Below, in pieces: positions 2,676 to 9,832 of a DNA stretch of 64,000 nucleotides; the first letter of the stretch is position 1; every line of letters starts with the position of its first letter. This stretch comes from Paenibacillus ferrarius (lineage in GTDB: Bacteria > Bacillota > Bacilli > Paenibacillales > NBRC-103111). The stretch covers positions 62,001-126,000 of the forward strand of contig NZ_MBTG01000012.1 in NCBI RefSeq assembly GCF_002027705.1, in the 5' to 3' direction. A program made the position numbers and the translations under genes. Under the pieces are notes generated by a model. It had not been told where the DNA came from. It did not search any database and was given only the letters and a program-made list of their open reading frames with translations.

Positions 2676-3527
2676 ATGCAAGGCGTTGGACTCGTACTGG
2701 AAGGCGGAGGTATGCGAGGGGTATACACCGCAGGAGTCTTGGAATATTTTATGGAGCAGGATTGGTATTTTCCCTATGTTGTAGGGGTGTCAGCGGGGGC
2801 GTGTAACGCCGTTTCGTACATCTCCAAACAACCTGGCCGGAATAAGAAAGTGACCATTGACTATATTGGAGATCACCGATATTTAAGTTACCGTAATCTA
2901 TGGCGTCACAAAAGTATATTCGGGATGGATTTCATTTTCAATGAATTACCGAATGTGTTAGTTCCTTTTGATTATGATGCCTTCTATAATTCGCCGCAAC
3001 AGTTCGCTATCGGTACGACCGATGCGCATACAGGGGAACCTGTTTACTACACGAAACATCAACTTATGAAGCAAACGATGCCCATTGTTCAGGCTTCTAG
3101 TTCATTGCCATTCGTAGCAAAGCCGATTCATTATGAAGGCCGCACCTTATTTGATGGCGGATTGGTCGATCCGATTCCGGTTCAGAAGTCGGTTGCAGAT
3201 GGGAATCGGAAACATATTATTGTTCTTACCAAAGAGCAAGGCTATCGAAAAAGTCCATTCAAACAAGGTTGGCTTGCCAAAAGTTTTTATCCGAAATATG
3301 ACGGTTTGGTGAATGTACTTGTGAATCGAAGCGAAATCTATAATGGAACACTGGAGACCATCGCAAAAATGGAAAAAGAGGGAAGTGCGATCATTATTCG
3401 CCCATCTTCCAAAGTGGTCGTGGGCCGTATGGAGAAAAATCCGAAGAAGCTGGAAGACCTGCATGAGTTAGGCTATGCGGATGCTAAGCGAATGGGATCT
3501 CAGCTAAAAAGTTGGTTATTAACATAA
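2676..3527 (+). CDS. Patatin-like phospholipase family protein
   Basis: 283 residues. The N-terminus carries the glycine-rich oxyanion motif LEGGGMRGVYTAGV, followed by the nucleophile elbow GVSAGA (catalytic Ser) and later DGGLVDPIP (catalytic Asp of the Ser-Asp dyad). This is the bacterial RssA/YjjU-like patatin group, which hydrolyses acyl esters of phospholipids or other lipids. There is no signal peptide, so it is probably cytoplasmic. The ATG has a spaced GAAGGTG ribosome binding site. The downstream PhnB-like gene begins just after the stop, so they may be co-transcribed. Confidence 0.88.
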   Translation: MQGVGLVLEGGGMRGVYTAGVLEYFMEQDWYFPYVVGVSAGACNAVSYISKQPGRNKKVTIDYIGDHRYLSYRNLWRHKSIFGMDFIFNELPNVLVPFDYDAFYNSPQQFAIGTTDAHTGEPVYYTKHQLMKQTMPIVQASSSLPFVAKPIHYEGRTLFDGGLVDPIPVQKSVADGNRKHIIVLTKEQGYRKSPFKQGWLAKSFYPKYDGLVNVLVNRSEIYNGTLETIAKMEKEGSAIIIRPSSKVVVGRMEKNPKKLEDLHELGYADAKRMGSQLKSWLLT

Positions 3528-7552: not shown

Positions 7553-8342
7553 AGCCATTGATGCGCATATTCATCTTGATATGTATTCGGAAACGGAAGT
7601 GCAGGAGATCGTATCAGACTTAACGGAAATGAATGTTGAATGTGTCATTGCCGTGTCCAGGCATCTGGCCTCTTGCATAGCTACGAAGCAGTTGAAGAAA
7701 GACGCACCCAATCAAATATTTACTGCTTATGGATTTCATCCTGAGCAAGAGCTGCCCCATGAAGCTCAGCTGAATGAGTTAATATCATGGATACGTGAAG
7801 AAGCAAATGAGATGGTAGCTGTAGGTGAGATTGGTCTGCCTTATTATAGTAGACTGGAAGCGGAGGAGCAGGGGCTGACTTTGGATTTGGCGCCATATGT
7901 CACGCTTCTGGATACCTTGCTGAAGCTTGCTGCGGAATTGGCAAAACCGGTTGTTCTGCATGCTGTCTATGAGGATGCGGAGATCGTTTGTGATCTTCTG
8001 GAGAAGCATGGCATCACCAAAGCACATTTTCATTGGTTTAAAGGGGCACCTCATGTAGTTAAGCGTATGATAAATGCAGGTTATATGATCTCGATTACAC
8101 CGGATGTGCTTTATGAAGAAGAAATAAGAACCCTTGTTCGTAGTTATCCGATTAAACAGTTAATGGTCGAAACTGACGGACCTTGGCCGTTCGAGGGTCC
8201 CTTCAAGGGGCAAGTAACGCATCCTCGGATGATACATGCCGTTATTGAACAGATTGCGCTTCTGCATGGCTTGACTGCTGAGGAGGCAGGAAGCATTATA
8301 TTGGAGAATACCAAGCGATTCTATGGTCTTTCTACATTTTAG
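7545..8342 (+). CDS. TatD-family metal-dependent hydrolase in the thiamine operon
   Basis: 265 residues with the TatD/amidohydrolase motifs: AHIHLD near the N-terminus, GEIGLPYY, a His in VLHAVYED, FHWFKG, and VETDGPWPF near the C-terminus. These provide the expected metal ligands. It starts inside the end of the ATPase gene and is the last gene of the TPP-controlled operon. TatD proteins are usually nucleases or deacylases. Here a role in processing the imported pyrimidine, such as removing an N-formyl group, is possible but is only inferred from the neighbours. Confidence 0.85.
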   Translation: MNKAIDAHIHLDMYSETEVQEIVSDLTEMNVECVIAVSRHLASCIATKQLKKDAPNQIFTAYGFHPEQELPHEAQLNELISWIREEANEMVAVGEIGLPYYSRLEAEEQGLTLDLAPYVTLLDTLLKLAAELAKPVVLHAVYEDAEIVCDLLEKHGITKAHFHWFKGAPHVVKRMINAGYMISITPDVLYEEEIRTLVRSYPIKQLMVETDGPWPFEGPFKGQVTHPRMIHAVIEQIALLHGLTAEEAGSIILENTKRFYGLSTF

Positions 8343-8401: not shown

Positions 8402-8449
8402 TGGACATGTGTTCGTAATAGAATTATAATAATTAAGAACACATGTTCT
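8402..8449 (+). promoter_or_regulatory. tag promoter with two LexA (SOS) boxes
   Basis: A sigma-A promoter is visible: -35 TGGACA (8402-8407), 17-bp spacer, -10 TATAAT (8425-8430). Two 14-mers match the Bacillus LexA consensus CGAACRNRYGTTYG at 12 of 14 positions: TGGACATGTGTTCG (8402-8415, covering the -35) and AGAACACATGTTCT (8436-8449, just downstream of the -10). LexA bound at either would block RNA polymerase. Confidence 0.82.
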
Positions 8450-8473
8450 ATATTTGGTGAGGTGAGTTTAAAA

Positions 8474-9034
8474 ATGACTGTCCGATGCGGTTGGGTCAAT
8501 GATGATCCATTATATGTAGATTACCATGATCATGAGTGGGGGGTGCCTGTCCATGATGATCAAAAGTTGTTCGAGATGCTTAATTTGGAAGGTGCACAAG
8601 CAGGACTGAGCTGGTATACAATTCTGAAGAAGCGTGAGGGCTACCGAGCAGCTTTCGATGAATTTGATCCGCACATCATTGTGAATTATCAGGATGAGAA
8701 GCTGAATGAGCTTCTGCAGAATCCAGGGATTGTACGCAATCGCTTGAAAATCGCGGCTGTGGTTCAGAATGCGCATTCCTTCTTGGCAGTGCAAAAAGAA
8801 TTTGGATCGTTTGATCAATACATATGGGGATTTGTCGGCGGCAAGCCATTAAACAATCATTGGGAAAGCATGAGTCAAGTACCTGCGACATCTGCGATTT
8901 CGGATGCGATGAGCAAAGACTTAAAGAAGCGTGGTTTTAAGTTTGTTGGGTCGACAATTTGCTATGCTTATATGCAAGCTGTAGGAATGGTCAATGACCA
9001 TATTCAAACTTGTATTCGATACGGCAGCGAGTAG
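8474..9034 (+). CDS. tag: DNA-3-methyladenine glycosylase I
   Basis: 186 residues. The ATG at 8474 has AGGTGAG seven bases upstream and is preferred over the GTG at 8462. The sequence is a close fit to Tag: RCGWVNDDPLYVDYHDHEWG, GAQAGLSWYTILKKRE, and the C-terminal NDHIQTC. The N-terminal Cys and His and C-terminal His and Cys are the expected structural zinc ligands. Tag removes 3-methyladenine from alkylated DNA in base excision repair. Its promoter carries two LexA boxes, so it should be induced by DNA damage. Confidence 0.94.
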   Translation: MTVRCGWVNDDPLYVDYHDHEWGVPVHDDQKLFEMLNLEGAQAGLSWYTILKKREGYRAAFDEFDPHIIVNYQDEKLNELLQNPGIVRNRLKIAAVVQNAHSFLAVQKEFGSFDQYIWGFVGGKPLNNHWESMSQVPATSAISDAMSKDLKKRGFKFVGSTICYAYMQAVGMVNDHIQTCIRYGSE

Positions 9035-9040
9035 GAAATT

Positions 9041-9090
9041 AAAGGGCTATCTGAGGCGGGGAATTATCCCCTATCGGGCAGCCCTTTTTT
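9041..9090 (+). terminator. Terminator between tag and the convergent SOS gene
   Basis: AAAGGGCT pairs with AGCCCTTT around an inner GGGG/CCCC stem, followed by six T residues. It directly follows tag. Confidence 0.85.
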
Positions 9091-9112
9091 GTATTCATTA
9101 TTTTTGAAGCAA

Positions 9113-9415
9113 TTATGCGTATTGAAGCTGTTTCTCCATAAGGTTCGTTTTAATTAAGTAAATCCGCTTACGAATATAGAAATCATAAACAGCACCGGTT
9201 AATTCTCGTGGCTTAATGCGGTTGTTCGTGTCATTGTCTATGATTATCACCGAACCGTCATCATAAAACTTGAACGTATAATCGGCGTAATGGGAATGTG
9301 CTTCATCCAACATGTCGTCAATCTGTCCGGGAAGAAGATGGTCAGTGTCACACAATGCCTTGTGGTACCAATAATCTCTCTCGATAAAGCGAAAATTGTG
9401 ACTAGTGTTCATCAT
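9113..9415 (-). CDS. Uncharacterised 100-residue protein with LexA-controlled promoter
   Basis: 100 residues from the ATG at 9415, which has GAGGAGG eight bases upstream; the longer frame from 9445 would start inside a LexA box. It is soluble, acidic in the middle (QIDDMLDEAHSHYADYTFKF) and basic and aromatic near the C-terminus (YDFYIRKRIYLIKTN). I do not recognise a family. There is no signal peptide, no membrane helix and no helix-turn-helix I can name, so it does not look like YneA. The promoter has two LexA boxes around the -10, so it is probably part of the SOS response, together with the convergent tag gene. Confidence 0.8.
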   Translation of the reverse strand: MMNTSHNFRFIERDYWYHKALCDTDHLLPGQIDDMLDEAHSHYADYTFKFYDDGSVIIIDNDTNNRIKPRELTGAVYDFYIRKRIYLIKTNLMEKQLQYA

Positions 9416-9438
9416 GTTAACAACCTCCTCATCTAATT

Positions 9439-9480
9439 GGAACATTTGTTCTTGTTTTCATTATAACAAACAAACGTTCG
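9439..9480 (-). promoter_or_regulatory. Promoter of the 100-residue gene with two LexA boxes
   Basis: Read on the minus strand: CGAACGTTTGTTTG (9480-9467, 13 of 14 consensus positions), then -10 TATAAT (9465-9460), then AGAACAAATGTTCC (9452-9439, 12 of 14). The arrangement, one box upstream and one downstream of the -10, is the same as at tag. Confidence 0.82.
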
Positions 9481-9832
9481 TATTGGAAGAGGAATCTTTG
9501 AAAAATGGGAATTATTTTCATATAAATGAGGTGATTTTATAAGAATCTTTTGCAGATTAAGTGAGGGGGGAATAAGTTTAGAGCTTTTATCCAGTTTAGT
9601 GGGATTCGGGGCGGGACTTTGATAGAGGTATTTGGTTGACTGATAATGGAGTTTGAGGGTTGGGTCTTCTGTTAACAGAATGTTAAAGTCTGTGGAATGG
9701 ACTTTGGTTAGCTTATGATGAGGACCTGTTGGTGGGCCTTCGGTTAACGGAATATGAAACCCTATGTGGATGGTATGTTAGTTCCCGGAATAAGGGTGCT
9801 TGAGAGCAAGGTACTCGGTTTTTCGAACAAAA
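9481..9832. other. Intergenic stretch without recognised gene
   Basis: No convincing coding sequence. Two similar segments with an embedded GTTAAC palindrome, TTCTGTTAACAGAAT near 9668 and TTCGGTTAACGGAAT near 9740, are the only structure seen. Repeat family R1 begins directly after. Confidence 0.5.

Follow-up and report, generated by a model that had tools for sequence, protein, structure and literature searches.

A nameless gene of Paenibacillus ferrarius is probably a single-gene SOS unit that is repressed by LexA at two predicted operators. It lies on the minus strand at positions 9113..9415 of the window, by which we mean the whole 64,000-nucleotide stretch of DNA that was analysed, and it is convergent with tag on the plus strand. 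LexA control of this gene is strongly supported by comparison: the main copy has paired boxes in every one of the 111 genomes with a homologue, and boxes of this type also occur in the organism's own lexA-yneA region. On the best reading of the sequences, the product would be an undescribed, tightly repressed, soluble putative SOS effector. A preliminary description of this DNA had proposed that both convergent genes are DNA-damage inducible via LexA. The comparison favours this proposal for the nameless gene throughout the order (111/111) and for tag within the genus. The strongest part of the observation is the nameless gene, and its weakest part is the upstream box of tag.

Promoter architecture of the nameless gene

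The open reading frame, which has homologues, comprises 100 codons from the first ATG and 99 from the second, and corresponds to the long form of the family. An AGGAGG motif was read from the sequence 8 nt ahead of the first ATG. The promoter contains a -35-like hexamer TTCCAA (9483..9488, minus strand), which was read from the sequence and from aligned promoters. A -10 hexamer TATAAT (9460..9465, minus strand) follows at a distance of 17 bp; the same place was matched in a genome-wide promoter-box scan. Box 1, CGAACGTTTGTTTG (9467..9480, minus strand), is located inside the spacer between the two hexamers. Box 2, AGAACAAATGTTCC (9439..9452, minus strand), starts 7 bp past the -10 hexamer. Between the gene and tag, a bidirectional, terminator-like inverted repeat was recognized by eye at approximately 9046-9090.

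Quality of the LexA-like sites and their expected number

Together with two sites at the tag promoter, these boxes make up four LexA-like 14-mers, for which 12 to 13 of 14 consensus positions had been claimed. Rescoring against CGAACRNRYGTTYG on the better strand confirmed their coordinates and match counts, which are 12, 12, 12 and 13 of 14 for 8402-8415, 8436-8449, 9439-9452 and 9467-9480, respectively. With up to three mismatches allowed, the loose consensus occurs at 146 sites in the window, compared to 127 expected. In the whole genome, CGAACNNNYGTTYG gave no excess (24 matches versus 56 for the reversed control pattern), and a pattern for box pairs was not enriched (4+4 versus 2+4 in the reversed control, i.e. 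8 versus 6 on both strands). The loose palindrome is therefore common in window and genome, and the case rests on the place, the quality and the conservation of the boxes. With respect to place, boxes after a -10 hexamer were found 30 times genome-wide versus 11 times in the reversed control, and boxes before a -10 hexamer 22 times versus 13 times.

For the assessment of quality, a scoring matrix was derived from 61 distinct boxes of the lexA/yneA regions of 30 genomes. The training set included the boxes of the host's own lexA and excluded the four boxes under test. By this matrix, the sites at 9467 and 9439 rank first and second in the window, the site at 8436 ranks third and the site at 8402 ranks tenth. 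In eight simulated windows, the number of equally good sites per 64 kb was 0.12 for 9467, 0.12 for 9439, 0.38 for 8436 and 10.1 for 8402. The score of the 8402 site is at chance level in the window; since its training sites had RAAC/GTTY half-sites, the matrix is biased against the GGAC half-site of 8402. The argument that a pair of boxes at both promoters makes chance unlikely thus holds for the nameless gene, whereas for tag it holds in part, for the site at 8436. Rank 4 is occupied by AGAACCCTTGTTCG at 8127-8140, which lies within a tatD-like gene upstream. Sites like this one recur at the same place in some relatives, which is perhaps merely an effect of the coding sequence.

Conservation of the paired boxes

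The nameless protein occurs in all 24 other sampled genomes of the genus, and the nearest named relative seen, P. alba LMG 31323, contains a protein that is 99% identical. Within the order, homologues were detected in 111 of 296 sampled genomes and in 23 of 48 genera. The gene is absent from the other 185 of the 296 genomes, and its function must therefore be dispensable. Beyond the order, no homologue was found: sampling of the class (299 genomes) and of the phylum (398 genomes) gave the own genome as the sole match, and both samples also contain members of the order that lack the gene. The gene is not known to be a member of the LexA regulon of Bacillus.

A total of 116 rows were scanned. 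Two duplicates (L075 = L083 and L076 = L085) reduce these to 114 loci, namely 111 main copies and three second copies. A search for homologues with adjacent boxes had been proposed in the preliminary description. At least two boxes were found within 130 nt upstream of the start codon in each of the 111 main copies, and an orthologous main copy devoid of boxes, on which the claim for this gene might have failed, was looked for and not seen. Among random 130-nt control segments of the same loci, 391 of 20,210 contain one or more boxes and 0 of 20,210 contain two. The three second copies (L138, L159 and L160) have no boxes. Judged by a loose promoter pattern, box 1 is located inside a spacer of 16-18 bp in 109 of 111 loci (17 bp in 76, 16 bp in 32 and 18 bp in one). 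The start-to-start distance of the two boxes closest to the start codon is 26-32 nt in 109 of 111 loci and 59 nt in L095 and L096. Identity to the window's protein decreases to 31% among the 91 other aligned members. The promoter arrangement has therefore been kept where the protein is much changed. From the place and the conservation of the boxes, we infer that LexA binds to them and that the gene is induced by DNA damage.

The predicted LexA regulon of the host genome

The host genome (G000; 9.18 Mb in 73 contigs, 99.82% complete, 7.49% contamination) contains both lexA and recA. In each of 30 genomes compared, lexA is present and 2 to 6 RAACNNNNGTTY boxes lie upstream of it. In the host, the gene divergent from lexA codes for a LysM protein of 139 residues that has a hydrophobic segment and is of the YneA type. 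A divergent gene with a hydrophobic stretch adjoins lexA in 29 of the 30 genomes, and a crude LysM pattern was found in 22. In the promoter of the own yneA, TTGACT and TATTCT are separated by a 17-bp spacer with a box inside it, and a second box follows; a strict promoter pattern recovered this arrangement in 15 of 30 genomes. The promoter of the nameless gene thus resembles that of yneA, with one box in the 17-bp spacer and a second one past the -10 hexamer, and in both cases a single small product is encoded. The likeness is one of promoters only. YneA contains a LysM domain and a hydrophobic segment, whereas the nameless protein contains neither, and the two sequences are unrelated. None of the 114 family members has a hydrophobic or membrane-type segment; their top 19-residue Kyte-Doolittle mean is 0.82, compared to 2.45 for the own YneA-like protein.

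Upstream of recA, a GAAY-N4-GTTC box is present in 29 of 29 loci (L219-L247; the thirtieth was too short and was left out), and it is mostly a single, weaker box of the GAAT type. A loss of recA control was considered, as the strict RAACNNNNGTTY is absent from 27 of these 29 upstream regions, but it was rejected: all 29 have a box when GAAT half-sites are allowed. Good boxes also lie at the own promoters of a YolD-like gene, a DinB-family gene, a gene for a C5 DNA methylase and two genes for zinc-ribbon proteins of the IS1595 type, a set that is in keeping with a LexA regulon. In Bacillus, YolD and DinB are linked to LexA. In the case of the C5 cytosine DNA methylase gene (PF00145; L261, C19:87618-87637), CGAACAAACGTTTG stands directly before TATAAT with the same spacing as in the nameless gene, and the methylase is possibly under LexA. 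At the two loci for IS1595-type zinc-ribbon proteins (L274, C3:102537-102561; L277, C4:211728-211753), TATAAT is followed by a strong box; both genes may be derived from transposases and be under LexA. L271 (C1:156341-156362) codes for a protein of 77 residues that matches no Pfam family; here one box lies 57 nt upstream of the -10 hexamer and another just past it. At L049 (C56:181046-181096), two boxes precede the gene of a 299-residue protein that is phage antirepressor-like by eye.

The operator type of the nameless gene is that of the Bacillus LexA regulon, for which PMC4551915 cites the consensus CGAAC-N4-GTTCG. The following mechanism is proposed. In an undamaged cell, one LexA dimer would be bound between the -35 and the -10 hexamer and a second one just past the -10, and with both in place RNA polymerase could not start. 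DNA damage would lead to RecA-driven self-cleavage of LexA, by which both sites would be freed. The small soluble protein would then be made together with the division inhibitor YneA. In this genus, tag would have joined the same control, chiefly via its downstream box. According to PMC12700426, the properties of LexA boxes did not predict SOS timing in Caulobacter; a double box need therefore not mean that a gene is late or harmful.

Predicted control of tag within the genus

The tag gene (8474..9034, plus strand) codes for 3-methyladenine DNA glycosylase I; it starts with an ATG at 8474, and a GTG start at 8462 is possible. The product is a full member of its family, with scores of 288.8 bits for PF03352 and 252.9 bits for TIGR00624 (cut-off 232.5), both over the cut-offs. 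It is set apart by the LexA-type boxes at its promoter, whose conservation, in the loci compared, is confined to this genus. The promoter consists of a -35 hexamer TGGACA (8402-8407, plus strand) and, 17 bp further on, a -10 hexamer TATAAT (8425..8430, plus strand), which was matched in the genome-wide promoter-box scan. The downstream box, AGAACACATGTTCT (8436..8449, plus strand), begins 5 bp past the -10 hexamer. The weaker site, TGGACATGTGTTCG (8402..8415, plus strand), starts at the first base of the -35 hexamer and lies over it.

The downstream box GAACNNNNGTTY is present in 30 of 30 distinct promoters of the genus, the own one included. In contrast, the upstream box GGACNNNNGTTC is present in 16 of 30, and only one of nine tag promoters of other genera has a box, which is a downstream one (L084). 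LexA control of tag, as predicted from its promoter, is supported within the genus. Whether the pair of boxes at tag is partly due to chance is evenly balanced. In that case only the downstream box would work, and the likeness of the upstream site to a box would follow from the -35 hexamer TGGACA. This agrees with the chance-level matrix score of 8402 and with the retention of TGGACA in 29 of 30 promoters, compared to 16 of 30 for the full GGACNNNNGTTC; however, the other half-site is intact in these 16 promoters, which is more than a -35 hexamer requires.

Tag and the nameless gene are also adjacent and convergent in nine loci from other genera, and most of these tag genes lack a box. The neighbourhood therefore seems to be older than the shared control. 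Given boxes in 30 of 30 promoters inside the genus and one of nine outside, the control of tag looks like a local addition, whereas that of the nameless gene is order-wide. Genes similar to tag are listed in the SOS regulons of other Firmicutes. For Leptospira, a fold change of 0.96 is given for tag in PMC3789691.

Properties of the nameless protein

The protein exists in a long form of 98-100 residues and a short form of 71-76 residues, which lacks about residues 15-42. In an alignment of 92 members, R8, D44, T46, F47, N60 and L71 are invariant, and E11, F49, G53, I57, D59, G73, F78, Y79, I84, I87, L91 and A99 occur in at least 90%. The median dN/dS value is 0.034 for the 196 of 300 same-genus pairs with usable dS, whose median dS of 1.29 is near saturation. 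The protein is under strong purifying selection. Its C-terminal 30 residues are basic on average (+2.9).

No consistent family was found for the 92 members in Pfam (best E 0.011), NCBIfam (best E 0.00052, one member) or PADLOC (best E 0.0012, mad7, nine members). A PADLOC re-scan of ten members, which were not selected to contain the nine mad7 matchers, gave no match, and neither did PHROGs for the window's protein. The weak matches in the Pfam, NCBIfam and PADLOC libraries were attributed to chance, and so were two poor hits among solved structures, to GABARAP (E 0.16) and to a yeast protein (E 0.46). Averaging a Chou-Fasman prediction over the aligned members suggested the order strand, helix, strand, strand, followed by a C-terminal part of mixed character; this is too weak a basis for conclusions. 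A resemblance to the order of elements in DinI was not supported, as a comparison by hhalign with a manually entered sequence of E. coli DinI gave a probability of 0.2%. In searches of the open literature, no paper was found that, judged by its title and the beginning of its abstract, gives an account of a Paenibacillus LexA regulon or of this protein. As far as the searched libraries and the literature show, the protein family is new; the LexA control itself is of a known kind.

Proteins of the DinI kind are small soluble SOS products with phage relatives, and the C-terminal part of DinI is acidic. The nameless protein is likewise small, soluble and a predicted SOS product with phage relatives. 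It differs from DinI in its basic C-terminal part and in the lack of a relation detectable by hhalign.

Gene neighbourhood and phage relatives

The neighbours of the nameless gene vary between genera in the 116 rows, and a constant partner was sought among these rows and not found. The tag gene is near in 35 loci. In 23 loci, a gene that is HAD-like by eye follows downstream on the same strand at gaps of 46-475 nt, which do not suggest a firm operon.

A tblastn search with the window's protein against phage and plasmid collections gave no match, nor did the L138 protein against the phage collection. Viral scans with the profiles A1 and A3 found nothing. The profile A2, led by the box-less second copies, identified relatives with 35-39% identity on four IMG/VR contigs of 121,816-217,570 bp, of which L186 and L187 are near-identical. 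No boxes were found in the 250 nt before the start of these relatives. In L186, the relative is one of a series of small genes. Upstream in the same contig (at about 2948-3459) lies a toxin gene of the PemK/MazF-like type, and a perfect GAACAAATGTTC stands approximately 100 nt before that gene.

Possible functions of the nameless protein

The suggestion of the preliminary description that the protein functions in repair or cell-cycle control is a plausible guess. Tentatively, we consider it a binding-type effector that may restrain replication or the cell cycle during DNA repair. Two observations led to this proposal: the other own promoter that shows the complete arrangement belongs to the division inhibitor, and copies without boxes are present in large phages. 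A bolder version, which we regard as rather unlikely, is that the family, shared by this order of Gram-positive spore-formers and its large phages, provides a soluble checkpoint protein as a second one in addition to YneA in the membrane, and that phages express it constitutively to bring the cell into the same state.

Under unchanged LexA control, the protein could instead be an accessory of DNA repair or recombination; it might, for example, modulate the RecA filament or a nuclease. We regard this as a possible though not a probable role. The predicted SOS control, the basic C-terminal 30 residues, the convergent tag neighbour in 35 loci and the copies on large phage contigs are all consistent with it. 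However, the tag neighbourhood is confined to part of the family while most other neighbours vary, the DinI profile comparison gives no relation, and no repair family was found in Pfam, NCBIfam or the solved structures.

It is quite unlikely that the gene is a domesticated or still mobile phage gene, that is, a phage early protein that was captured, put under LexA and acts on phages or prophages at SOS induction. Four large viral contigs with relatives at 35-39% identity would fit such an origin, as would the location of the three box-less second copies amid genes that are phage-like by eye and the identical length of 164,118 for one viral contig and the contig of L160. Yet the host form and its promoter are conserved across the order sample, the dN/dS value is 0.034, the phage and plasmid collections gave no match, and no PADLOC match is outstanding. 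That the boxes bind a GAAC-N4-GTTC repressor other than LexA is highly improbable: although GAACGACCGTTC pairs at C12:243210, between genes that are FAD-dependent oxidoreductase-like and TetR-like by eye, suggest that similar palindromes can serve other regulators, the same kind of box is concentrated between lexA and yneA and precedes lexA in all 30 genomes, and the matrix built from lexA/yneA boxes alone ranks the two boxes of the nameless gene first and second in the window. Roles other than restraint, repair and a phage-related function share the rest of the probability.

Bacterial SOS regulons hold most of the known DNA-damage checkpoint and mutagenesis genes and are little charted outside a few models. 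The retention of the boxes in the compared relatives marks the nameless gene as a putative component of the DNA-damage response of these soil bacteria that has been overlooked. The conservation of a promoter was by itself enough to single out a nameless protein family that is kept by many bacteria of the Paenibacillus group and is also phage-borne. Direct tests of function can start from the genomes listed, from the conserved promoter and from a protein that is small and soluble.
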